Assembly (NCBI GenBank): GCA_902785825.1
Contig: CACZZZ010000003.1
Span: 1 to 64,000, forward strand
DNA from: an uncultured Bacteroidia bacterium
GTDB taxonomy: Bacteria; Bacteroidota; Bacteroidia; Bacteroidales; UBA932
DNA: 64,000 nt
Direction: 5' to 3'
Shown: in pieces, positions 16,235-34,052 of the stretch
Layout of the letters: every line of letters starts with the position of its first letter
How positions within the stretch are numbered: position 1 is the first letter of the stretch
Notes under the pieces: model-generated
What the model was told of the DNA's origin: nothing
The model's database searches: none
Seen by the model: the letters and a program-made list of their open reading frames with translations, nothing else
Translations under genes and position numbers: made by a program

Positions 16235-19200
16235 CTATTGTTTATCAATGACCAGCATCCATCCTTCCTTAGCCTTGACATTCAGCTCCACAATCCCTGT
16301 GCCCCCGCTCCCTGGCGTCCTGAGCTGAGCGAAGGATCGTTCCTCTTGGAAGTTTTGGATCGCCGGGGCGCTTACCTTAGCCTTCACCGGATCTATCCCG
16401 AGAGCCTTCCAATTGATTATGAGCCGGATGTTTTTATCCTTTTCTGAGAAGTTACCTATTGAGACCAAAGTGGTTCCGTCCTTGACATAGGCAGTCGCCC
16501 TGACCTCGGGATCGGATGTCGTGACAGGACAATCCGGATCCCAGTAGCCTATCATCCGGGCGTCTTTGATTCCGGTTTTCTCCCAGAACTTCCACATCGG
16601 CACAGGAGACTTCTCGTCCCCGGCGTCTGTCCAAGAATGTCTTGCGGTGGTGCCGTAAACCATTCCGAGGAAGCGGTTCCCGCCATCCTGGAGCATCTCT
16701 GACATAACTCCGAACGGAATGCCGGAGAAAGTCACGAGCCATTCGTCGGGAGTCATCTGGTTGTATTTGAAACTCTCCCCGAACCACAAGCGGTCCATGT
16801 AGGGGAAGAACTCGGCATATTGGTTCATCGGACCTATCGAGGCGGCGTCATTGGAATGGAGATCTATCAGCGAGCCCTCGTGGTAACCGTCAAGGATCTT
16901 GCGGAGACGTTTTATAGTGATCCTGTCGCAGGACACGTCGTCCATGTAGAGCCCGTCAATGCCATAGTTTTCCTCCATCCAGCGCACGCCCTCAAGGAAG
17001 TAATTGATATACCTCGAGTTACCTATGAGCTGTACGGCCGGGTCGCTGTCCCATTTCCAGAAATCATCAAGGGAGGTGTACCAGTTGGGGGCATAATCCT
17101 CGATCATGTGCTCGCACATCCAGGCGTTTCCCTTCCCGCCTCCGCCTCTGATTATCTCATGGTTGAGACTATGGAAGGCGTAAATCTCCTCGCAATGGAC
17201 GGAAAGCTCCCTGATTGTGTAATAAAGCTTGACTTTGCGCCCATTCTCGTGCTGATGGTTGATGAATTGGACCAGGGAGTCCCGGACTATGAACGGATAG
17301 TTGATATAGGGGTTAAGTCTCCTCGCATGGTGGATGTTGTCTATGTTCGCCCCGTCTTCAGCGGCCTTGTCGAAATCCGCTGGGTCGGCGTGGAAGAACC
17401 TCATTGAGAACTGCTTGGCGGGATCAGGATCCTTGACAGGAGTGATCAGCAGATTGAATTCGAAGTTCTTGGGCTCTTTGACGATGGTGTCCGGACCAGT
17501 AGAGGCCACCACAGTCGCTGGTCCACCTTTGGCCCCGGAGACAGTCACCCTGCCCTTGCCGTCGTTGTACCAGACAGGCGAGGGAGCCGGCCGGTATTTC
17601 CTGAGTAGAGGACCGTGATACTCTCCGCCACGGAGCTCCGTGTGCAGGCCGGCCTTCACACCTCCCATCCAGAAGCTGTCGAAAGGACCTGTCCAGTCCC
17701 ACGAATATGAGGCGGGACGGTACCCTCCCTTGAAGCCTATTCCCATAAAGTATTCCGAGGAGTAGGCTGAATATGAGGTCTCGAGCCTTATGTCCCTGAC
17801 CTCGATGTCGTCCCCGGCTGAAGAGACGTTGATGTCGAAGTGGATATGCCCGTCAAATTCCATTTCTCCGGCCAGATTGAACTTGATCCCGTTTTGCTCG
17901 GAAGAAGCCGTCCATGTTACCAGGCCGGTAGCCTCTTTGTTGATCTTGACATTGTCGGCGGATAAGATGACATCGCCCTTGACTGTGGACACGACAAGCC
18001 TCTGTGGCTTTCCGAACACCTTGATGCTATTGATCTCAATGTCTTGGATCATTCCGTTCCCACCCACGGTCACGTCCTTGCCGGTGGCCTCGACCTTATT
18101 TCCGCTGACACTCATTTCCTTGTAGGGCGCGGTGGGCTCTTTGTCATCAAGCGCTATCGTGGAGTTGAGCCAACGGAGTCTCGCATGCCGCCAGACCTGG
18201 GAGTCGCCTTTGTCGGCCAGATCCTTGGGCGACACTTTTATAGCGAGATTAATGATTTGAGGATCAACACCTTCCGCTGTGACAACAGCCTGACCCTCGT
18301 ACACACCAGACTTGGCGTCCTCCGGGATTTGTACTCCGCACCAGAGCGCCTGAACCTTGTCCTTCGGGACATCTATCGTGAAGTCAAGACGGCTTCCGTC
18401 CCAGGATGTTCCCTCCTGGTTGAAGCAGGTGATGGCTTCCGTCCCGATGACCGATCCTCCATTCTTGAGCTCAGTGAATTTGACCTTGACGTTCTTCAGG
18501 TCTTTCCCCGCGGCCCACACACCTAATTGCCAGGTGTAATATTCATTCCTCATCGCGAGGCCCTTGAACTCTGGCAGCGGTGCCTTGACCCATTTGACCG
18601 GGATATATCTTGAGAACTGGATAGGGAAGGCCCTGTCCTCCGGGAAGACGACCATGTCCCTGCCAGTGGACGCTCTTAGGGCCTTGATTTCCCCAGCTGT
18701 GGCGATGAGCCCCATGGGACTCCAGAAATGGAACCGCGAGGCGCTTTCGAACCGGTTTACCTTAGCCTTGGGGAGACTGTCCTTCGAGGAAGTGACTTTT
18801 TCTTTCCAACTTGCCTCGGCCTCATATTCTGGCGCCAGATAGTCCGAGACGTTAGCGTACCAATATTGCCACTTGTAGGGAAGGTAGTAGATATAGTAGG
18901 TTCCGGGTCCAGAAACCGGCTTGAATAGTATTTCACCTTCCTCAGGAGTCAATTTGGTGACCACAACATCTTTTATCTCCTTGTCTTCCGCATCAGTGAC
19001 AAGAATCTTCTTGGTCTCTGGGTTAAGGTCAGGCCTCCTCCATGGAAGCTCCACCAAGACACCCTCTCCGGAATTCTCAGCGACGGTCACAACCGCCCTG
19101 TGATTGCCTCTCTGGTCAATCGCCCAGGTAGAGTCAGCCACCACGAAGGGGATCCCGTCCGGGGCGAAAGCCTCGTACCGGCTGTCCCCGTCAGGGTAAC

Positions 19201-19276
19201 TGCCTGCCCCGGAGCATCCTGCCATGAGGATCAGTCCCGGCAATGAGACGGCAAGAAGGATGAGGATTCTTTTCAT
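16235..19276 (-). CDS. Large DUF6067/GH123-like secreted enzyme, copy A
   Basis: The 1013-residue lipoprotein has lipobox MAGC (C20). It is built of an N-terminal beta region, a central sandwich region around 350-620 (WRHARLRWLNSTIALD, GMEFDGHIHFDINVS) and a (beta/alpha)8 barrel after about 640 with GIDGLYMDDVSCDR and LIDLHSNDAAS, where acidic residues fall on strand ends as in retaining glycosidases. The C-terminal part ends in a beta-sandwich. DUF6067 proteins are GH123-related and biochemically little known. It shares long identical segments with the 28429-31464 gene, so the two are paralogues flanking SusC/SusD and GH89. It is 17 bp before the GH123 gene. Specificity is not inferable. Confidence 0.75.
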   Translation of the reverse strand: MKRILILLAVSLPGLILMAGCSGAGSYPDGDSRYEAFAPDGIPFVVADSTWAIDQRGNHRAVVTVAENSGEGVLVELPWRRPDLNPETKKILVTDAEDKEIKDVVVTKLTPEEGEILFKPVSGPGTYYIYYLPYKWQYWYANVSDYLAPEYEAEASWKEKVTSSKDSLPKAKVNRFESASRFHFWSPMGLIATAGEIKALRASTGRDMVVFPEDRAFPIQFSRYIPVKWVKAPLPEFKGLAMRNEYYTWQLGVWAAGKDLKNVKVKFTELKNGGSVIGTEAITCFNQEGTSWDGSRLDFTIDVPKDKVQALWCGVQIPEDAKSGVYEGQAVVTAEGVDPQIINLAIKVSPKDLADKGDSQVWRHARLRWLNSTIALDDKEPTAPYKEMSVSGNKVEATGKDVTVGGNGMIQDIEINSIKVFGKPQRLVVSTVKGDVILSADNVKINKEATGLVTWTASSEQNGIKFNLAGEMEFDGHIHFDINVSSAGDDIEVRDIRLETSYSAYSSEYFMGIGFKGGYRPASYSWDWTGPFDSFWMGGVKAGLHTELRGGEYHGPLLRKYRPAPSPVWYNDGKGRVTVSGAKGGPATVVASTGPDTIVKEPKNFEFNLLITPVKDPDPAKQFSMRFFHADPADFDKAAEDGANIDNIHHARRLNPYINYPFIVRDSLVQFINHQHENGRKVKLYYTIRELSVHCEEIYAFHSLNHEIIRGGGGKGNAWMCEHMIEDYAPNWYTSLDDFWKWDSDPAVQLIGNSRYINYFLEGVRWMEENYGIDGLYMDDVSCDRITIKRLRKILDGYHEGSLIDLHSNDAASIGPMNQYAEFFPYMDRLWFGESFKYNQMTPDEWLVTFSGIPFGVMSEMLQDGGNRFLGMVYGTTARHSWTDAGDEKSPVPMWKFWEKTGIKDARMIGYWDPDCPVTTSDPEVRATAYVKDGTTLVSIGNFSEKDKNIRLIINWKALGIDPVKAKVSAPAIQNFQEERSFAQLRTPGSGGTGIVELNVKAKEGWMLVIDKQ

Positions 19277-23337: not shown

Positions 23338-25290
23338 TTACCAACCTTCATTTTGCTGATGGTCAAGACCATAGGCCTCGCGAGTGTCGAGGAAGCCCTG
23401 GTGGATCGGGAAGAGATACCTCTTGGTCGTGAACTGCCTCTTGGCGGCTCCTGTGATGGTTACCTGGCCGACAAGGATAGCGTCACGGGCGCGATTGATA
23501 CTCATCTTGTAGGTCGCTCTGTCAAGATCGTAGATGATGTCTCCAGGATTCCTGCCGTGATTTGAGTAACCGCCGTACTTACCCCATCTCAGGTAGGTGA
23601 AGTACATGTCGGCGTGCTCGTTGGTCATCTCGCAGTTGCGCTCCCTCATGTAGTCTTCCCAAGCCTCCTCCAGGGTGCTGGCCTTGGACTCGGGGAGTTT
23701 TCCATGAGTGACACGGGTAGCGTTGAGGGCCTTGACGGCCTCGGTCACGTTGTTCTGGAGCAGATAAGCCTCGGCGAGGTTCATGTAGGCCTCACCGACA
23801 CGGGCGATCACATAGTGCATGTCAATCTTGACACTGCCATAGTAAGTGTTCTGCGGGTTCTCTATCGTGTTCTTCCTCCAGTAGTAACCGGTAGCCGTGT
23901 TGTACCAGGCGCCGTCTTCCTTGTCACGGACACCGATACCGGCGTTACCGTCGAGGTTGGTGTGGAATGGTTCACCCACGAAAACATCACCGTCAGCAAT
24001 GATGGAGCCGTGGAAACGGGCATCCCTGTTCTGGTACATCAGCTCGGAGATATTCCTTTCGTCCGTACGGTCGGCCTTCAGGACTGAGTAACGGGTGAAA
24101 GTCGGAGTGTTCTCATTCACGTTGCTCAAGTCGTTCGGTGAAGGGATCCTCCTGGGGTTGCCGTTCAGCTGGTTGTACTGGTCAACTTGGCCAGGTTCAG
24201 TGACGGTGGAAGGATCGAGCTCATCCACGTTCTCTTTCCACTGGGAGGTCTCCCACCAAGGAAGAGCTTCTTTGGTCTTGTCGTCAATCACAAGATACTG
24301 GTCCACAAGATCTTGAGTAGGCCAATAAACACCCCAGGCGCAGAAAGTCTGACCATCCTTGTTGGTCCACATGACGGGGCACTTGGAATTCTCCTGCTGG
24401 CTTGGAGTGATGTTTGGGGCCGTCAGCTGGGTCTCGTAGAAGCTGGACATCTGGCTGTTCTGGGCCAAACGGTAATAACCGAGGAGAATCTCCGGGTTGT
24501 ACTGGTCGGTCTCATTGAACATGCCGGCATAATTGGTGGTCAGCTGCTTGTTCTCGACAACATCCTTAGCCGCGGTGATACACTTGTTGAGGTATGCCTG
24601 GTCCCCGGTGTAAGCATAAGCCTGGAGGCAAGCTGAGCTGAGCAGCACCTCGGCGGCGTACTTGTTTGCCCTTCCGGTGGAAGATGTCTTGGGCAGGCCG
24701 GCAATTGCGTCTTCAAAGTCGGCTATGACTATATCGTAGCTTTCCTTGACAGAGGAGGTCATGTGGAGATCCTTAACGACCGTGGTGTCCTCCTGGGAGA
24801 AAACCTGTTTGATCGGGAGGAAACGACCCATCGTACGGGCCTGGTAGAAAAACACCATGGCACGGAGGAACTTGCCCTCAGCCACAACCACTGTCTTTTC
24901 CTCTGCGGAGAGGTTCTCAGAGGCTGTCGCCTTTTCGATAATAAGATTACACCTACGGAGCCTCGAGGCCTGGTTGGCGCCCAAGTCCTGGGATCTGTTA
25001 AAGATTTCCAGTGCCCAACGGTCTGAAGGTCTTGTGACCTGGTCGGCCTCAACGGTATTCGGGGTTCTGGCTTCCCATGTCACAGCTGTTCCTGAGCCTG
25101 CCCACAATCCATTGAGCACTGAGGCGTAGGTAGCGTTGATGAACGCGTTTGCGGTACTATATGAACTCCAGACGGTCTCCTCGTCAAAGAAGTCTGTCGG
25201 ATGAGTGTCAAGAGTGTCGCGGCACGAGGGAGCTAGGATCAGGAGTCCGAGTCCCAACAAACTGAATAATATATTCTTTTTCATATTCAT
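23338..25290 (-). CDS. SusD/RagB nutrient-binding lipoprotein
   Basis: ATG 25290 (MNMKKNILF) gives about 650 residues and lies 7 bp after the SusC stop. Lipobox APSC (C21), then the N-terminal DTHPTDFFDEETVW typical of RagB/SusD. Residues 60-300 form the TPR-like helical solenoid (AEEKTVVVAEGKFLRAMVF), and the C-terminal half ends AYGLDHQQNEGW with a typical ID-RFPI-like section (KRYLFPIHQGFLDTRE). SusD proteins sit on the outer face and pass oligosaccharide to their SusC partner. The glycan is not evident from the sequence. Confidence 0.95.
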   Translation of the reverse strand: MNMKKNILFSLLGLGLLILAPSCRDTLDTHPTDFFDEETVWSSYSTANAFINATYASVLNGLWAGSGTAVTWEARTPNTVEADQVTRPSDRWALEIFNRSQDLGANQASRLRRCNLIIEKATASENLSAEEKTVVVAEGKFLRAMVFFYQARTMGRFLPIKQVFSQEDTTVVKDLHMTSSVKESYDIVIADFEDAIAGLPKTSSTGRANKYAAEVLLSSACLQAYAYTGDQAYLNKCITAAKDVVENKQLTTNYAGMFNETDQYNPEILLGYYRLAQNSQMSSFYETQLTAPNITPSQQENSKCPVMWTNKDGQTFCAWGVYWPTQDLVDQYLVIDDKTKEALPWWETSQWKENVDELDPSTVTEPGQVDQYNQLNGNPRRIPSPNDLSNVNENTPTFTRYSVLKADRTDERNISELMYQNRDARFHGSIIADGDVFVGEPFHTNLDGNAGIGVRDKEDGAWYNTATGYYWRKNTIENPQNTYYGSVKIDMHYVIARVGEAYMNLAEAYLLQNNVTEAVKALNATRVTHGKLPESKASTLEEAWEDYMRERNCEMTNEHADMYFTYLRWGKYGGYSNHGRNPGDIIYDLDRATYKMSINRARDAILVGQVTITGAAKRQFTTKRYLFPIHQGFLDTREAYGLDHQQNEGW

Positions 25291-25297
25291 GTCGCTT

Positions 25298-28200
25298 TTA
25301 GAATCCAATGTTAACAGTTAAAGCAAGAGTCCTGTCGACCGGGTAGTTGTAGTTCTGGGAAGAACCGGCCTCGGGGTCGAGTCCGTAAACCCGGGAATTG
25401 GACCATGTGAGCACGTTCTGTCCGGAAATACCGACCCTCATCCTTGAGAGCCAGTCATATTTCTTGAGTGCGGAATACTTGAAGTCATATCCGATCTGGA
25501 AGTCCTTCATACGGATATACGCGCAGTCAATAAGCCAGAAGTCACTGTCGAGGAAGTTGTTGTTGGCGTTGAGGTTCGTGTTGGAAGTGAGCCTCGGATA
25601 TGCGGCGTTGGTGTTCGAAGGAGTCCAGGTGTTCTCCTGGTAAGGGAAGATGACGGAAAGGTCACCGACCTGGCTGGTCTGCATGGAATTGGTAGAGTTT
25701 GTTCCGTTCAGTCCCAGGTTGTAGTTGGTAGCACCTTGGATCAATGTGCTGAAATAGAATCCCTTCCATCCGAGTGTGATGTTGACACCATACTGTGCGC
25801 GAGGAACACTGGTCTTGCCAAGCCTGCGGTAGTCGGCGGAAGTGATCTGTCCGTCACCGTTGGTATCCTCGTACTTGAGGTCACCGGGAGCGAGGTTGCC
25901 CGTGTTCATTGAGGCGAGATAAGCGACACTGTTGAACACGTCATTCTGATCGGTGTAGAAACCGAGGGAGTGGTAACGGTTGCCGTAGTAGCCCTTCTGT
26001 TGCTGAGTCCTGGTATATGGATTCATATAAGATGACTCTGCCTCACTCTGGTTATATGCCCAGAGCTGGTCGAAATAGGTCATGTTGGCGGCGACGTCAT
26101 AGCTGAAGTCTCCGATGTTGTCCCTCCAGCCGAGCTGGATCTCAATACCCTCGCGGCGGAACTCGGACTCGGACTTGACTTTCGGCATGGAGATACCCAT
26201 GACCTGGTTCAGATAGCTCTGTCCTGTAGGAGCCATAAGGTAGCCGAAGGTCTTGTAGAAGAAGTAGTCGAATGAGCCGTAGAGCCTGTTGGATAAGGAT
26301 GCGAAGTCAAAACCGATGTCGGTCTGGTTGGTGGTGTACCAAGTAAGGTCGGGTGAAGGTAGGGCACCCTCGCTGAAACCGGAAGCGAAGCCTCCGTCCA
26401 CGACATAGGAAGTCGCGCTCAATGTGTAGGACTGCATGTATGCGAATCTTCCGGCGCTGGAATCCAGACCGGTCTGTCCGTAGGAGGCGCGCAGTTTCAA
26501 CATGTTGAGGACGTTGTTGTCAACAAGGCCTTTCATCCAAGGCTCCGCTGTCACGACCCAACCGGCAGATCCTCCGACGAACAGACCCCATCTCTTGCCA
26601 GGGGCGAAATAGTCGGAACCGTCATAACGCATACTGCCCTCAAGGTAGTACTTGTTGGCGTAGTTGTAACGGGCCTGGCCAATCCAAGCGGCACGTCCTA
26701 GCTCGGCCTCGCTACCACCATTGGTCTGGGTGTCCGCGGGTCCTACGCTGATCTGGTCAACCTGGAACTCGTATTTCTCCCTTCCCATGTAGTAATCAAA
26801 ACCTCTCTCGTAGTATTGCTCGTAACCACCGACCACTGAGACTGAGTGTTTGCCAAATTGGTTGGCATACTCCAGGAACGCCTGGTTGGTGTAACCTATA
26901 TTCTTGTCATTAGTGATCGAGATGTAAGGCTGTCCGGCATAGATGGGTTGTGTGGAATCCCACTCGTACTCAGCGGCGTTCTTTCTCCAAGTCTTGTTGT
27001 TGTAGAAATAGTAGCGGTAGTTCGAGGAGACGCGGGCCTTAAGTCCCTTGACCCACGGCACGCTCCAGACAATCTCTCCCTTCGCATTTATAACGTTGGA
27101 GCTGGATTTTGTGTAACCGGCTCCCATAGTTGTCTGGGCGTAAAGGTTGTAGTTACCATTCCAGAAAGGAAGTCCGTGAGCGTTGAAGATAACACCCTGG
27201 TCGCCTCTTGCCAAAGCGGAGAAAGCGCTCCACATGCCATCGAACTGGGTTCCTCTCGGTTCATGGATAGACTGGGTGTAACCATCGACAGTGGCGTTGA
27301 TCTGTACACCGAACTTCTTGAGGTTAATTGTCTCGGCCAGACGTATTGTGGAGCGGTAGAAACGGTGGTCAGCGTTCTTCAACATAGACTTCTGGTCGGT
27401 GTTGGAGAAGGATGCGTAGGTGCGCATCACGTCGTTTCCGCCGGACATCCTGACAGTGTGCTTTGTCTGAGGTGTCCATTTCCTGAGGATCTCCTTGCGC
27501 TGGGAGTTCATGGGGCGCTTCTGGGAATCATAGCCATCTTTCGCCAGGTTTATAACCTCCTGGGAATAAGCCGGCTCTAGGCCATCGTTCTTGTAACCTT
27601 GGTTAGCGAACTCATAACGCTGCCATGTCGGCTCGACATCGGGCCAGAAAGCGGGTTGGGCGAATGACTGGTTGAAGTCGTAGTCGACGGCGACCTTGCC
27701 CTGAGAGCCTTTTCTTGTGACAATCTGGATGATACCATTAGCGGCTCGGGAACCGTAAACGGCTGTCGCCGAAGCGTCCTTCAGGATGTTCATCTGCTCG
27801 ATGTCCTCAGGAGAGAGGCTGACGAAGTCGCTCTTGGAACGGATGGCTCCATCTATAACGTACAACGGCTCACCTCCACCACGGATACTGATTGAAGGGT
27901 TGACGTTGATACCACCACCGCTCTGCTGGACGATAAGTCCAGGGGAACGGCCGGCGAGACCTTGCGAGATGTTCACAACCGGGAGGTTGGAAATCTGCTG
28001 GGTTTTAACCGTAGAGACCGAGGAGATAAGGTCTCTCTTAGTCGCTGATGAATAACCCACGACCAAGACATCGTCGAGCGCTAGCACATCCTCTTCCATC
28101 GTGAGGTCGTGCGTTCCGGCCTTGTCCGCATTGAACTCAACAGTGGTGTAGCCGAGGTTCTCGATTGTGACCACGGCGCCAGCGGGAACTGATAATGACC

Positions 28201-28390
28201 ACTTTCCGTCAGCGTCTGTAACGGCTCCGTTCAAGGTGCCTTTCTCAAGGACAAACGCTCCCACAACGGGTTGTCCTTTGGCATCTTTCACGGTACCGTT
28301 AACGGTCACCTTTGTCTGTGCGAATGCTATCTGCACCAGACATAGGAAGATCGCTACCGCGATACTTCTCAAACTAGGCGATTTTAACAT
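25298..28390 (-). CDS. SusC/RagA TonB-dependent receptor
   Basis: ATG 28390 starts a signal peptide (MLKSPSLRSIAVAIFL, cleavage near AFAQ) of a 1030-residue protein. A carboxypeptidase-regulatory-like domain (VNGTVKDAKGQPVVGA) is followed by the TonB box region and the plug (DDVLVVGYSSATKRD, SISIRGGGEPLYVIDG), then a 22-stranded barrel whose last strand ends VNIGF. It moves oligosaccharide into the periplasm using TonB energy. It precedes SusD by 7 bp and follows the DUF6067 gene by 38 bp in the same direction. Confidence 0.95.
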   Translation of the reverse strand: MLKSPSLRSIAVAIFLCLVQIAFAQTKVTVNGTVKDAKGQPVVGAFVLEKGTLNGAVTDADGKWSLSVPAGAVVTIENLGYTTVEFNADKAGTHDLTMEEDVLALDDVLVVGYSSATKRDLISSVSTVKTQQISNLPVVNISQGLAGRSPGLIVQQSGGGINVNPSISIRGGGEPLYVIDGAIRSKSDFVSLSPEDIEQMNILKDASATAVYGSRAANGIIQIVTRKGSQGKVAVDYDFNQSFAQPAFWPDVEPTWQRYEFANQGYKNDGLEPAYSQEVINLAKDGYDSQKRPMNSQRKEILRKWTPQTKHTVRMSGGNDVMRTYASFSNTDQKSMLKNADHRFYRSTIRLAETINLKKFGVQINATVDGYTQSIHEPRGTQFDGMWSAFSALARGDQGVIFNAHGLPFWNGNYNLYAQTTMGAGYTKSSSNVINAKGEIVWSVPWVKGLKARVSSNYRYYFYNNKTWRKNAAEYEWDSTQPIYAGQPYISITNDKNIGYTNQAFLEYANQFGKHSVSVVGGYEQYYERGFDYYMGREKYEFQVDQISVGPADTQTNGGSEAELGRAAWIGQARYNYANKYYLEGSMRYDGSDYFAPGKRWGLFVGGSAGWVVTAEPWMKGLVDNNVLNMLKLRASYGQTGLDSSAGRFAYMQSYTLSATSYVVDGGFASGFSEGALPSPDLTWYTTNQTDIGFDFASLSNRLYGSFDYFFYKTFGYLMAPTGQSYLNQVMGISMPKVKSESEFRREGIEIQLGWRDNIGDFSYDVAANMTYFDQLWAYNQSEAESSYMNPYTRTQQQKGYYGNRYHSLGFYTDQNDVFNSVAYLASMNTGNLAPGDLKYEDTNGDGQITSADYRRLGKTSVPRAQYGVNITLGWKGFYFSTLIQGATNYNLGLNGTNSTNSMQTSQVGDLSVIFPYQENTWTPSNTNAAYPRLTSNTNLNANNNFLDSDFWLIDCAYIRMKDFQIGYDFKYSALKKYDWLSRMRVGISGQNVLTWSNSRVYGLDPEAGSSQNYNYPVDRTLALTVNIGF

Positions 28391-28428
28391 AAGTGATTGA
28401 TTAATAGTTGATAAATGGTGAGTATATG

Positions 28429-31400
28429 TTATTGTGAGATTACGATCAGCCAACCTTCCTTGCTCTTGACCGGGATAGGTTGACCCGCCTTGAAGGAAGT
28501 CTCATCCTGGAAGTTCATGATCTCCGGGGCGGTAATCTTGGCCTTAGCGGGATCTATCCCGATAGCTTTCCAGTTTACTGTCATCTTTATCGTCTTGTCC
28601 TTTCCTGAGAAGTTTCCGATAGAGACCAGGGTCTTGCCGTCCTTTACATAAGCCGTGGCCTTGACATCCGGATCCGAGGTGGAGACAGGACAGTCAGGAT
28701 CCCAGTAGCCAAGCATCTTCGCCTCTGTTATCCCGAACTGATCCCAGAACTTCCAGACCGGCACAGGGGATTTGACATTCTCTTTTCCGGTTCCGGTCCA
28801 AGAGTGCCTCGCGGTTGTGCCATAAACCATCCCCAAGAACCTGTTTCCGCCATCCTGCAGCATCTCGCTCATCACGCCGAACGGGATTCCTGAGAAGGTG
28901 ACAAGCCATTGGTCAGGTGTCATCTCATTGTACTTATAGCTCTCACCGAACCACAGGCGATCCATATAAGGGAAGAACTCGGTGTACTGGTTGGCCGGAC
29001 CCTGCGAGTATCCGGTATTGGAGTGGAGATCGATGAGGGCACCGTCGTGATATTTCTCCAGAATCTTGCGGATTCTCTTGACTGTTGTCCTGTCGAAGGA
29101 CACGTCATCCATGTAGATACCGTCCAGGTCGTAGTTCTCTTCCATCCAGCGGAGTCCCTCCAGGAAGTAGTTGATAAACCTTGAGTTAGGTGTAAGGACC
29201 AGAGCCGCGTCGGAGTCATTCGGCCGGAAATGGTCGAGAGAGGTGTACCATGCCGGCTTGTAATCGTCGATCAGGTGCTCGCAATCCCAAGGCAGGCCGT
29301 AACCTACACCCTCGAGGAATATCTCATGGTTGAGGCTATGGAACGCGTAGACCTCATCGCAGTGGGTCGTGAGCTCGCGGATGGTGTAGTACAGTTTGAC
29401 CTTCCTGCCGTTCTCATGCTGGTGCTTGATGTGCATGATCAGGGAGTCCCTGATTATGTAGGGATAATTGATGTACGGGTTGAGGTTGGTGGCGTGGTGG
29501 ATGTTGGATATGTTGGCCCCGTCCTCAGCCGCCTTGTCAAAACCGGCGGGATTGGAGTGATAATACTTCTCAGAGAAGTGTTTGGAAGGATTAAGATCCT
29601 TGACCGGGGTGATCAGGAGATTGAACTCATAGTTCATGGGCTCCTTGCCGATAGTCCTCTTGCCTGTCGAGGCGATAACTGTGGCTGGTTTGCCCTTCGC
29701 TCCGCTGACAGTCACGGTCCCCAGGTGGTTGTTGCTCCAGACAGGGGTAGGCTCGGGTTTATAGTCCCAGATAAGCGGTCCGTGGTAGGTGCCGCCCCTG
29801 AACTCGGTGTGCAGACCCGCTTTCACGCCACCGATCCAGTAGCTGTCGTAGGAACCGTCCCATTTATAGGTGTAGTTGACAGGGCGGTATCCGCCTCCTT
29901 TTCCGCCGCCATATCCGATACCGAGGAGATACTCGGAAGAGTAGGCGCTGTAGGTGGAGACGAGCCTCACATCCTTGACCTCTATCTCCTTTTCTGAAGA
30001 GACATTTATGTCGAAGTGCATGTGGCCGTCGAACTCCATGTTCCCGGCAAGGTCAAACTTGATCCCTTTCTGCTCCGAGGAGGCTTTCCATGTCACGAGA
30101 CCGGCCGCATCCTTGGTGATCTTGACATTGTCGGCGTTGAAGACCACGTCGCCACTGTTCGTGGACACAACCAGGGTCTGAGGCTTCTCGAACACATTCT
30201 TCCCGTTGACCTCAATCTTGTTGACCATTCCGTTGGCACCGACCTCGATGACCTTGCCGGTCGCCTCGACTTTATTCCCATCCACAGTCATTTCCTTGAA
30301 CGGGGCGACAGGCTCATTGTCCAACGCTATGGTTGAGTTGAGCCAGCGTAGTCTGGCGTGTCTCCAGGTCTCTGAGTCCCCCTTGTCCGCCAGGACCTTG
30401 GACGACACTTTAATCTCAATCGGTATTGCCTGAGGATCAACGCCTTCCGCTGAGATAACCGCCTGTCCCTTATAGGTCCCAGACTTGGCGTCCTCAGGAA
30501 TCTGGACTCCGCACCAGAGAGCCTGTACCTTATCTTTGGGCACGTTGATGGTGAAATCCAGATGCTTGCCATCCCAGTTTGTTCCCTCCTGGTTGAAGCA
30601 TGTCATGGCATCCGTCCCGATCGTGGCACTGCCGTTCTTGAGTTCTGAGAAAGCGACTTTGACATTCTTGAGTTCCTTCTTCGCCGCCCAGACACCGAAT
30701 TGCCATGCGTAATACTCATTCTTGTCGGCCGCGCCTTTGAAAACCGTCTTCGGTCCTTTGGCCCATCTCGCGGGAATCTGGTAAGTCAACTGGATAGGAA
30801 AGGCCCGGTCCTCAGGAAAAATAACCATCTCTTTACCCACGGCGTTCTTTACAGCGTCCATCTCGTCCGCCGTGGCAATCAAACCCATAGGGCTCCAGAA
30901 GTTGAACCGGGAAACACTCTCAAAGCAATTCACGGTCGCTTTTGGAAGTTCATTTTTCAAACCAACCATTTTTTCGGACCAGGCCTTGTCCGTATCGTAT
31001 TCTGGTGGAAGATAATCGTTCCAAGGTTTGCCATATCTGGCGTCTCCGCTTCCCGGACGCCATTTATAAGGCAGGTAATAGATGTAATAAGTCCCGGCTC
31101 CGGCCGTGGGTTTGAAGACCACCTCTCCTTTTTCCGGAGTCATCTCCGTGACTATCACGTCCTTGATCTCGTTGTCCTCGGCGTCGGTCACAATGATCTT
31201 CTTAGTGTCAATCCTCAGGTCCGGACGTCTCCACGGCAGCTGGGCTACCACACCATCGGCCGAGGTTTCACCCACAGAGACTACAGCCCTGTGATGACCT
31301 CTCTGGTCAGCTTTCCATTGGATATCCGCAACTTTGAACGGAATCCCGTCGGGAGCGAAACTTTGGTAGCGGCTATCTCCGTCAGGGATGTTTTTAGTCC

Positions 31401-31464
31401 CGGAACAGGAGACTACGCTAGCGCAAATCGCGATGATTAATGATAAAGAGAAATGTGGTTTCAT
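28429..31464 (-). CDS. Large DUF6067/GH123-like secreted enzyme, copy B
   Basis: The 1011-residue lipoprotein (lipobox VVSC, C20) is the closest relative in the window of the 16235 protein, sharing segments such as NEYY-WQ-GVWAA and QALWCGVQIPEDAKSG. It has the same architecture: N-terminal strands, a sandwich (MEFDGHMHFDINVS), a barrel with LDGIYMDDVSFDR and LIDLHSNTG, and a C-terminal sandwich. One difference is an insert in the N-terminal region (YKWRPGSGDARYGKPWNDYL, absent in copy A). As first gene before SusC it probably acts at the cell surface on the glycan fed to the transporter. A strong hairpin lies just upstream of its ATG. Confidence 0.75.
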   Translation of the reverse strand: MKPHFSLSLIIAICASVVSCSGTKNIPDGDSRYQSFAPDGIPFKVADIQWKADQRGHHRAVVSVGETSADGVVAQLPWRRPDLRIDTKKIIVTDAEDNEIKDVIVTEMTPEKGEVVFKPTAGAGTYYIYYLPYKWRPGSGDARYGKPWNDYLPPEYDTDKAWSEKMVGLKNELPKATVNCFESVSRFNFWSPMGLIATADEMDAVKNAVGKEMVIFPEDRAFPIQLTYQIPARWAKGPKTVFKGAADKNEYYAWQFGVWAAKKELKNVKVAFSELKNGSATIGTDAMTCFNQEGTNWDGKHLDFTINVPKDKVQALWCGVQIPEDAKSGTYKGQAVISAEGVDPQAIPIEIKVSSKVLADKGDSETWRHARLRWLNSTIALDNEPVAPFKEMTVDGNKVEATGKVIEVGANGMVNKIEVNGKNVFEKPQTLVVSTNSGDVVFNADNVKITKDAAGLVTWKASSEQKGIKFDLAGNMEFDGHMHFDINVSSEKEIEVKDVRLVSTYSAYSSEYLLGIGYGGGKGGGYRPVNYTYKWDGSYDSYWIGGVKAGLHTEFRGGTYHGPLIWDYKPEPTPVWSNNHLGTVTVSGAKGKPATVIASTGKRTIGKEPMNYEFNLLITPVKDLNPSKHFSEKYYHSNPAGFDKAAEDGANISNIHHATNLNPYINYPYIIRDSLIMHIKHQHENGRKVKLYYTIRELTTHCDEVYAFHSLNHEIFLEGVGYGLPWDCEHLIDDYKPAWYTSLDHFRPNDSDAALVLTPNSRFINYFLEGLRWMEENYDLDGIYMDDVSFDRTTVKRIRKILEKYHDGALIDLHSNTGYSQGPANQYTEFFPYMDRLWFGESYKYNEMTPDQWLVTFSGIPFGVMSEMLQDGGNRFLGMVYGTTARHSWTGTGKENVKSPVPVWKFWDQFGITEAKMLGYWDPDCPVSTSDPDVKATAYVKDGKTLVSIGNFSGKDKTIKMTVNWKAIGIDPAKAKITAPEIMNFQDETSFKAGQPIPVKSKEGWLIVISQ

Positions 31465-31487
31465 TAGTTATGTGTTGTGGTTTTTCC

Positions 31488-31534
31488 AAAAAAACACGAA
31501 TGAGCCTAAAAAGTGGGTCTTTTGGCTCATTCGT
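31488..31534 (-). terminator. Terminator/attenuator hairpin ahead of the DUF6067-SusCD operon
   Basis: Read on the minus strand, an 11-bp stem ACGAATGAGCC/GGCTCATTCGT extends through an internal 5-bp AAAAG/CTTTT helix with loop ACCCA, and is followed by GTTTTTTT. Its last T lies 24 nt before the ATG of the DUF6067 gene. No gene ends close by: the GH42-like gene stops about 200 nt further upstream. It therefore either ends that gene's transcript or controls entry into the SusCD operon. The T-tract makes termination likely. Confidence 0.75.
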
Positions 31535-31735
31535 TATGTAATATGTTGATATGCAATAAGTTATACCCCCCCTCATCGAGAGGATAATAGCCTTGGTAGG
31601 AAGATACGTTATGATAGGACTGACTCAATTGCGCCGATTATCTTTCGCAAATTAGTAAAGATTTTCGGGATATGCAACTGAATTCTGAGATGTTTTATCT
31701 TTTTATTAATAATATGATTCTACCAATAGATAATC

Positions 31736-33622
31736 CTATTGAATTAAGAACAATCTAGTGTCGGGAGTGTTGAACTCGATTATGAATTTCTTAGCGTTCC
31801 TTGCCACCGTCTTCCCGGAGAACAGATCGACAACCTCCTTGGCCTTGCCATTCAAGTACACTGTTTTCATTCCTCCATCCTTGCAATGGACGCTGATGAG
31901 CCTCTCGTTGGCAAATACAGGCTCCAGGCCTTTCAAATACTCATGAGCGCCAGCCTTGATGCAGATTTCCTTCAATGCCTCACTGGTGTAGAGGGACGGT
32001 TCTTTAGCATAGACCGCTATCCATTCGCCCATATTCGTGGAATTCACCCCTCCCGTTCCGAACGGCACTCCGGCCCATCGCTCCACTCTATTGATATCCA
32101 ACGATTTCCCGTCGCTTATCCCCGGAGCGTAACACCAAATAACCGTCCTTCCGTCTTTGCAGATGTATTCCTTTAAGAGAGACTCTTTTTCCTTTGTGAT
32201 AGTCATTGTGGCGGGAAGAGCGACCACCTTGTACCGGGACAGATCCAGTCTCGTCACATCGGATAGGGAATAGCAGTCGATCGGCATTCCCATCTTGCTG
32301 AGAGCGTTCCTGAACGGCTCACAGAGTGACCAAGGGAAAGGAGTCTCATCATTCATCCCATTCATGCTTTCCGGATCAGCCAGGAACAAGACCTCGGACA
32401 CGGAGGCGGAATTGTCATTCTTGAAGCGCTCGAAAACCTCATGGGCCTTTCCTATCGCCTCCCGGAGCGTGGGATCATCGTAAAAATGTTCCCACATGTC
32501 GAACCACCACATGTCGGCATGGTTAATGATGGCGAAGCAGGCTTCCCGTAGATTGCCGGCTATGTCCTCAATGGAATCATTGTAAGCGGAACCACCCATG
32601 AAGTACCCGTGTGGCCGGTGGTCAACTTCATGGAAGAGTCTTTTCCCATTGAGCATGGCGGTCCCGAAAAGAGTCTGCGACCCGCTGCCCTCTCCCATAG
32701 CCCTGCTCGAATATGACGCTGGTGCGATAAAGAAGTCCAAGTCCTTGCTGGACAGTACCTTCTCATATCCCATATGGCCGAAACTCACCGTATGGCGGTC
32801 GCTGACAAGGTAGTAGCCGAAAAACGCTCCGATCTGTTTTCCGGCGGGGATGACAGATCTCGCCTTTGCCGCGTAACGCAGCACGGCGTCGGCGATCACA
32901 TCACCGTGGAATGTCCAGTAGTCTATCTTGTCACTCTCGGTAGCAGGATCATAGACTTTATTCTCGAATGCCGCCTTATGGAGATCTCGGAGTGCGGGAG
33001 CAGATTCCGCCGGTTGTTTTCCCCGAGCCATGAGCCATTCACCGAATGTCTTGTCTTTCAATGGACTGGAGTACCCTCTCTTGTATTCATACCATTCAGA
33101 GGTGCACCCGCCGGAGAGAATGTAGGCGAAGATCTTGTCTCCGTATTTGCTCTCGGCGTAAGCGACGAAGTCTTCCAGCCATCTCTCAGTCTCCTCGAAC
33201 CATTTGCCGTCGCAGGCGAAGCTTGAGATGAAATCATAGCTGTCTCCGGAAAATCTTCTTGTCGCCCAGTATGGTGTGTTAAGGTCGATCATGCACACGA
33301 TACGGGCTTCAGGACTCACTTTAAGAATGTCATCTATCTGGGCGTCAAGGTTTTCCCAAGCGTATTGCCCTATGCCTGTCCAAATGGGAGGGTATTGGCA
33401 GTAGTACTCTCCAAGAGAATTGATTGTGTTGGCGGCGAAAACGCACCGCGTGGTGATGCCGAGATCCTTCGCGAATATCCCGGTCATCTCCAACTGCTTG
33501 TGGAAGGACCTGTAGCAGTCAAACGCCGGACCCTTCGGGTTATTCACCATCCCCGGTCTCAATGGGTTGTTGACAATGATCGGAAGCAACAACGCCGTGA
33601 ATAAACAAGCCTTACGGAACAT
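31736..33622 (-). CDS. GH42-like secreted protein
   Basis: A 628-residue protein with a hydrophobic N-terminus (MFRKACLFTALLLPIIV). A (beta/alpha)8-type barrel spans about 30-400 (IGQYAWENLDAQIDDIL, YILSGGCTSEWYEYKRGYS, LFHEVDHRPHGYF), then a flavodoxin-like domain near 440-560 (RYKVVALPATMTI, DGRTVIWCYAPGI) as in the trimerisation domain of GH42 beta-galactosidases, and a final beta domain. It may process a glycoside, but I cannot assign catalytic residues with confidence. It follows hicB by 13 bp and shows no own promoter, so it may be co-transcribed with hicAB. Confidence 0.6.
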   Translation of the reverse strand: MFRKACLFTALLLPIIVNNPLRPGMVNNPKGPAFDCYRSFHKQLEMTGIFAKDLGITTRCVFAANTINSLGEYYCQYPPIWTGIGQYAWENLDAQIDDILKVSPEARIVCMIDLNTPYWATRRFSGDSYDFISSFACDGKWFEETERWLEDFVAYAESKYGDKIFAYILSGGCTSEWYEYKRGYSSPLKDKTFGEWLMARGKQPAESAPALRDLHKAAFENKVYDPATESDKIDYWTFHGDVIADAVLRYAAKARSVIPAGKQIGAFFGYYLVSDRHTVSFGHMGYEKVLSSKDLDFFIAPASYSSRAMGEGSGSQTLFGTAMLNGKRLFHEVDHRPHGYFMGGSAYNDSIEDIAGNLREACFAIINHADMWWFDMWEHFYDDPTLREAIGKAHEVFERFKNDNSASVSEVLFLADPESMNGMNDETPFPWSLCEPFRNALSKMGMPIDCYSLSDVTRLDLSRYKVVALPATMTITKEKESLLKEYICKDGRTVIWCYAPGISDGKSLDINRVERWAGVPFGTGGVNSTNMGEWIAVYAKEPSLYTSEALKEICIKAGAHEYLKGLEPVFANERLISVHCKDGGMKTVYLNGKAKEVVDLFSGKTVARNAKKFIIEFNTPDTRLFLIQ

Positions 33623-33635
33623 TCTCTTGGGATTG

Positions 33636-34052
33636 TTATAAATGCAAGGCTATCAAGTCGTTGCCGAGTCGGTGGAGAGCAGCTTCAATTTTGTTGATCT
33701 GAGCTCTACGTGGGGAGGATTTACCTTTAGCGTAGTGCCAAAGCTGCTTTTGGTTTATTCCTGTCAATCTTTCCAGTCCGGCTTTAGAGAATATTCCTTG
33801 GTATAGGGTCAGGAGACTTTTAACATCCATTTTAAACGCAATCGCATAATCCCCTTGTAACTGCTCCGGAACTGTACAACCAAGTTCTTTGCATGTTTCG
33901 ACGTAGTCGTTCAGGGTCTCTTGCAGGTTATTCTTTATTTCTTCAATTGTGTTACCAGTCGCGACAATGCCATCCAACTCATTGATATAAGCTGAATAAT
34001 TATTCTCTAGACTCTCAATTGTAGCTGTAATAGTCCTCATATTATTGTTCAT
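33636..34052 (-). CDS. hicB: HicB antitoxin with HTH domain
   Basis: The 138-residue protein starts with the HicB RNase-H-like fold (ATIESLENNYSAYINELDG, AATGNTIEEIKNNLQE) and ends with an XRE-type helix-turn-helix (SKAGLERLTGINQKQLWHYA) that would bind the operator. ATG 34052 overlaps the hicA stop by four bases (ATGA). HicB neutralises HicA and, through the HTH, represses the pair. It is longer than minimal HicB because of the DNA-binding tail. Confidence 0.9.
   Translation of the reverse strand: MNNNMRTITATIESLENNYSAYINELDGIVATGNTIEEIKNNLQETLNDYVETCKELGCTVPEQLQGDYAIAFKMDVKSLLTLYQGIFSKAGLERLTGINQKQLWHYAKGKSSPRRAQINKIEAALHRLGNDLIALHL

Follow-up and report, generated by a model that had tools for sequence, protein, structure and literature searches.

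A conserved leader found mostly before surface adhesin-like genes in related species suggests an undescribed RNA off-switch ahead of a glycan operon

Main finding

A hairpin followed by seven T lies just ahead of the first gene of a GH123-SusC-SusD operon in a 64,000-nt stretch of DNA (hereafter, the window) from an uncultured rumen bacterium of the Bacteroidales. This hairpin is probably the intrinsic terminator of a transcription-attenuation leader, i.e. a leader allowing conditional read-through, whose family is normally found ahead of operons encoding a small peptide and a surface lipoprotein. The best reading of the sequence is that this type of attenuator leader is undescribed and would here have been captured by a glycan operon.

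The terminator hairpin and the operon that follows it

The hairpin and its T-tract occupy positions 31488-31534 (minus strand), in the order ACGAATGAGCC-AAAAGACCCACTTTTTA-GGCTCATTCGT-G-TTTTTTT-GG. An 11-bp outer stem, in which ACGAATGAGCC (31534-31524) pairs with GGCTCATTCGT (31506-31496), is prolonged by a 5-bp inner stem (AAAAG/CTTTT), and a single G separates the stem from the T7 tract (31494-31488). The 54-nt hairpin segment has a folding energy of -19.9 kcal/mol (z = -5.5; 0 of 200 shuffles equally stable) and the whole 271-nt intergenic transcript also folds better than its shuffles (z = -3.4). The element thus has the features of an intrinsic terminator, namely a stable G+C-containing hairpin with a U-run directly after it; a simple terminator scanner overlooked it because the loop limit of this scanner is 8 nt. 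The initial annotation had proposed a terminator hairpin with a seven-T tract at this position, which sequence and folding against shuffles bear out, and had seen no gene end less than 200 nt upstream, which also holds: the nearest stop is at 31736 and the hairpin is 202 nt beyond it.

The ATG of the first gene (28429-31464, minus strand) is at 31464, 23 nt past the end of the hairpin and T7. The product belongs to Pfam GH123_N (PF19543, 1207.8 bits), the current name of the DUF6067 family to which it had been assigned. It is followed on the same strand by a SusC/RagA-type TonB-dependent receptor gene (25298-28453) and a SusD/RagB-type lipoprotein gene (23338-25308; PF07980). Upstream of the hairpin, the gene at 31736-33622 (minus strand) had been called GH42-like, a label that finds no backing in Pfam or NCBIfam, neither of which gave a match. 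A UPF0150-like (HicB-type antitoxin-like) ORF (33636-34052, minus strand) separates it from a metallophosphoesterase gene. The window carries a second GH123_N gene (16235-19276, minus strand), 70% identical to the first and devoid of the leader.

The hairpin was compared with the other terminators in 464 kb of the same genome (the window and 400 kb more), where intergenic hairpins with T5 or more and E <= -9 were scanned for, genes being crudely called as longest ORFs. Among the 27 intergenic sites obtained, the window hairpin is one of the strongest. As gene-end hairpins with T5 or more mostly lie 9-42 nt past the stop (14 cases) and the window hairpin lies 202 nt past it, the latter is not an ordinary 3'-end terminator. 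It is also the sole strong site among the 27 that combines an upstream leader with a start codon no more than 25 nt away (25 nt by the scanner's measure). A weaker comparable site occurs on another contig of this genome (C6:76545, minus strand, in L204), where a hairpin with T6 lies 4 nt ahead of a start codon, the previous gene ending 332 nt away; this hairpin is a possible second leader terminator. The site at the left edge of the window (+153) is probably the 3' terminator of a gene that this edge truncates. The 19 full-length SusC genes of the genome all lack a comparable terminator in the 100 nt next to the ATG; in three of them one lies farther off, at 104-132 nt, with enough space left for a promoter. 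A general pre-terminator motif was also considered and was ruled out, WATCARNNNNTTR preceding only 2 of the 27 intergenic terminators.

Promoter and 5' leader

A sigma-ABfr-type promoter is predicted at 31648-31677 (minus strand). It consists of TTG (31677-31675), N20 and TAATTTG (31654-31648), has the spacing of the Bacteroidetes type (-33/-7) and is the only match of this type in 31464-31760; its -7 box is the canonical TAnnTTTG minus one base. Transcription is predicted to start at about 31643 (31645-31641). This promoter is kept in four relatives, and its distance to the leader motif described below is that seen in unrelated leaders of the genus. Since a conserved promoter lies upstream and a promoter within the T-tract is unlikely (see below), the hairpin is predicted to lie inside a 5' leader of about 180 nt (31465-31643, minus strand), extending from the promoter to the ATG of the GH123_N-SusC-SusD operon and recognized by the family covariance model. 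This leader belongs to the long class of 5' UTRs, as only 13.5% of those of Bacteroides thetaiotaomicron exceed 100 nt (median 32 nt, mode 23 nt; PMC7366714).

Within the leader, hairpin 1 (31567-31583) is formed by a pyrimidine arm, CCTCTC (31583-31578), and a tract of seven G (31566-31572), the length of which is 7-9 in close relatives and 5-12 in the family (mode 9). It is followed by the linker UAUAACU-N8-AUCA-N5-UUA (31539-31565), the conserved motif of the leader family, and then by the terminator. The leader fold shows no convincing antiterminator pairing; by eye, only a 4-nt GGGU/ACCC contact can be drawn from the G-tract to the terminator loop.

The initial annotation had made its attenuator reading conditional on an operon start upstream of the hairpin, and the conserved promoter with its family-wide distance to the motif supports such a start. 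An upstream promoter, a terminator within the leader and no second promoter before the gene are thus all found in the sequence. The attenuator reading gains to this extent, and also from the finding, described in the next section, that the hairpin accompanies the GH123 gene and not the upstream one.

Conservation in relatives

The leader, the promoter, the hairpin and the T-tract are all kept in four relatives (G017, G204, G227 and G312), with 84-98% identity; the genome records of the close relatives describe Bacteroidales MAGs from rumen, omasum and similar sources. The T6-T7 tract directly past the stem is conserved and, in all five genomes, the start codon lies no more than about 25 nt past the terminator. 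One pair of the outer stem occurs in three states, G-C (three genomes), an A-C mismatch (G204) and A-U (G017, a compensatory change), and a G-U pair of the inner stem is replaced by G-C. This covariation, which concerns one pair in one genome and reaches a score attained by 197 of 500 shuffles (n = 5 sequences), is suggestive only.

The genome G064 lacks a homologue of the 31736-33622 gene, so that the leader adjoins the phosphoesterase gene directly; a homologue of the leader nevertheless stands ahead of GH123 in this genome, the hairpin at the corresponding place being a different one. In G105, the GH123 gene directly follows a GH20 gene without any leader. As the leader is kept in the former genome without the upstream gene and absent from the latter, comparison of these loci indicates that it goes with the downstream GH123 operon and is dispensable to it.

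A genus-wide family of G-tract leaders

Searches with the leader gave short matches ahead of unrelated genes. In 400 genomes of the genus, the pattern GGGGGG-TATAACT-N8-ATCA-N3-A-N-TTA is matched about 105 times, versus about 6 times for the reversed pattern (up to 3 mismatches). The contexts of about 80 of these matches were read and fall into two classes, i.e. palindromic intergenic elements (class A) and leaders resembling that of the window (class B). Class A elements, which are about 110 nt long and abundant in G046, have a central hairpin flanked on each side by a copy of the motif, the two copies being in opposite orientation (GTGGGGGATAACT..ATCAATG.CTTA, hairpin, then an inverted copy ending with CTTATCCYCCAC); examples are L158, L166, L168, L175, L183 and L187 (e.g. 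G046 contigs C2, C6, C10, C21, C26, C31 and C52). They are possibly repeat elements or bidirectional terminators.

The class B leaders share a layout that comprises a promoter at a fixed distance (about 70-90 nt ahead of the G-tract), a pyrimidine:G-tract hairpin, the UAUAACU-N8-AUCA-N5-UUA linker, a second hairpin often followed by U4-U7, and a start codon; the window leader displays each of these features. The -7 boxes cluster 61-90 nt ahead of the motif, 28 of 35 G-tract leaders have a TTG whose first base is 22-23 nt ahead of the -7 box, and the combined promoter motif is found in 26 of 53 non-redundant class B leaders (0.6 expected from shuffles). In hairpin 1, a pyrimidine block located 8-15 nt ahead of the G-tract pairs with it; about 24 of 27 members show the consensus pairing, with C-G/U-G exchange only. 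The second hairpin covaries, one pair being C-G in nine leaders and U-A in nine others. It is followed within 3 nt by T4 or more in 15 of 44 leaders (two of which are window types), versus 18 of 440 shuffles, and very strong terminator-like versions of it occur in L125 and in the window types. In many members, the U-tract is weaker (U4) or undetected, so that what the family has in common may be a function other than termination.

A covariance model was built from 27 class B leaders, window-type sequences being excluded. In a search of 524 kb it matches the window leader (31598-31486) with E = 7.9e-7, and this match is the best of the whole genome (E = 4e-6); membership by this model is partly circular because the training leaders were collected with a window-derived pattern, while promoter spacing, second hairpin and type of downstream gene are independent of that pattern. 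Rfam 15 contains no significant match for the window, the leader or the family members, and literature searches revealed no description of such a leader.

The genes that follow class B leaders usually encode a peptide of 40-50 aa and a lipoprotein. Five of these lipoproteins were scanned in Pfam, giving one Mfa_like_1, one BspA-type LRR and three proteins without significant match. Small peptides of about 36-60 aa of the YEAP..EVK.EGVICQSG type, are encoded ahead of surface lipoprotein genes at L109, L124, L159, L181, L184 and other loci; those scanned gave no Pfam or NCBIfam match. The window type is the only leader type of the family seen ahead of GH123-SusC-SusD.

Three further extensions of the family were rejected. 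The weak model matches elsewhere in the own genome (C9:185638 and C9:158549) both lie in coding DNA. As a mobile element or regulon site of this genome, the spaced motif has 23 matches versus 4 reversed (3 mismatches), but many of them lie in coding DNA with favoured codons (I-N-I-F-Q-N). Beyond the genus, at the level of the order, the matches are coding G-tracts or chance.

G-tract length and leader peptides

Three near-identical leaders (L133, L160 and L179) carry 8, 9 and 7 G, respectively, a difference that would be expected from slippage, these lengths being MAG consensus values in which homopolymer errors are possible and from which variation within a population is unprovable. Phase variation by G-tract length is thus possible. 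In another taxonomic family of the order, four loci of the genome G445 (L112, L117, L118 and L119) carry poly-G tracts of 6-12 G just past the start codon of genes for a family of secreted proteins; these are likely frame-switching contingency loci.

A conserved leader peptide was considered and is unsupported: a possible ORF starting with TTG does not end in the same frame in all relatives because the length of the G-tract differs, and no short ORF common to the whole leader family was found. A different leader of the genus, L102 (G183:C62 near 61889), encodes a peptide beginning with MNLHHHHHF and, by eye, has a hairpin with T7 just before a hisG-like start (no Rfam match). This his-operon-like leader suggests that the geometry of attenuators is in use in the genus.

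Alternative explanations

The hairpin could instead be the 3' terminator of the 31736-33622 gene or of an upstream operon, in which case GH123-SusCD would be expressed from a promoter of its own, located at the hairpin or beyond it. It does lie downstream of this gene on the same strand, the T-run with TTTG (31494-31487) resembles a -7 box, agreeing with TAnnTTTG at 5 of its 6 fixed positions, and the resulting 5' UTR of 23 nt would match the modal length in B. thetaiotaomicron (PMC7366714). No TTG is present 22-23 nt ahead of the T-run, however, and TTTG is broken in G017 although the hairpin and T7 are kept there. Given also its unusual distance from the stop, the separate promoter between the upstream gene and the hairpin, and the persistence of the leader in G064, we consider this explanation unlikely.

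The motif might also act as DNA, as a binding or recombination site, the hairpin being a DNA inverted repeat or an mRNA-stability element and no terminator. A similar motif does occur in inverted pairs in the palindromic elements (GTGGGGGATAACT...), and AUCA-N5-UUA resembles the IHF consensus WATCAANNNNTTR. This is distinctly unlikely, as the distance from the promoters to the motif downstream is fixed, which places the motif in a transcribed leader, the second hairpin of the family covaries and T6-T7 is conserved directly past the stem. Slightly more doubtful still is a stand-alone gene for a trans-acting small RNA of about 155 nt (31643 to 31488) comparable to GibS and FopS, with incidental read-through into the operon. 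Such a gene would account for the own promoter and the strong terminator, and the FopS RNAs of B. thetaiotaomicron likewise consist of a single-stranded 5' part and a terminator (PMC11697453). Nevertheless, the start codon always follows within about 25 nt in five genomes, no separate operon promoter is seen, family members occupy the 5' leaders of other operons and Rfam gives no match. Roles as small RNA and as leader could coexist.

Proposed mechanism

Under the attenuation reading, which we prefer, RNA polymerase would start near 31643 and produce a leader RNA of about 150 nt made of the pyrimidine:G-tract hairpin, the single-stranded conserved linker and the terminator. Most polymerases would stop at the T7 tract, and GH123-SusC-SusD would be transcribed only by those that read through. 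Read-through might be modulated by a candidate factor binding the linker, by refolding via hairpin 1 or by a change in G-tract length. Termination in vivo and its modulation are what we infer from the hairpin, the T-tract, the promoter signature, the conservation and the family membership, all of which are read in the sequence. A bolder version, which we put forward very tentatively, is a genus-wide leader class whose regulatory hairpin, ahead of the terminator, has a hypermutable G-tract as one of its strands, so that read-through is set by slippage. Such leaders would serve surface lipoprotein operons as phase-variable attenuators, one of which GH123-SusC-SusD would have captured.

Comparison with known systems and significance

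The known regulation of Bacteroides-type glycan loci acts mostly at transcription start or through small RNAs. Leader-peptide attenuators (his/trp type) also combine a promoter, a leader and a U-tract terminator hairpin just before the first structural gene, whereas the window leader and its family have no conserved leader ORF or run of regulatory codons, and their G-tract frames differ among relatives. Antitermination by UpxY and other NusG paralogs (Bacteroides capsule operons; LoaP in Bacillus) likewise concerns surface-glycan operons with long 5' leaders. In these systems, read-through is controlled and depends on a specialised antiterminator that the operon itself encodes. The small RNAs GibS and FopS, with RbpB, of B. 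thetaiotaomicron (PMC7366714, PMC11697453) share RNA-level control of glycan loci and a 3'-end terminator hairpin, but they act in trans, whereas the window element would act in cis, carries the G-tract and linker motif and has no Rfam match. The antisense RNAs of PULs (DonS family, cited in PMC7366714), HTCS, SusR and ECF sigma factors also regulate glycan operons, through antisense pairing or at transcription start, whereas the window leader would act at elongation.

A conserved terminator leader between the promoter and GH123-SusC-SusD would add control at the level of elongation. Furthermore, this type of leader recurs ahead of operons for small peptides and surface lipoproteins in a large, mostly uncultured rumen genus, and this genus-wide recurrence allows the ideas of a shared regulator and of phase variation to be tested directly.
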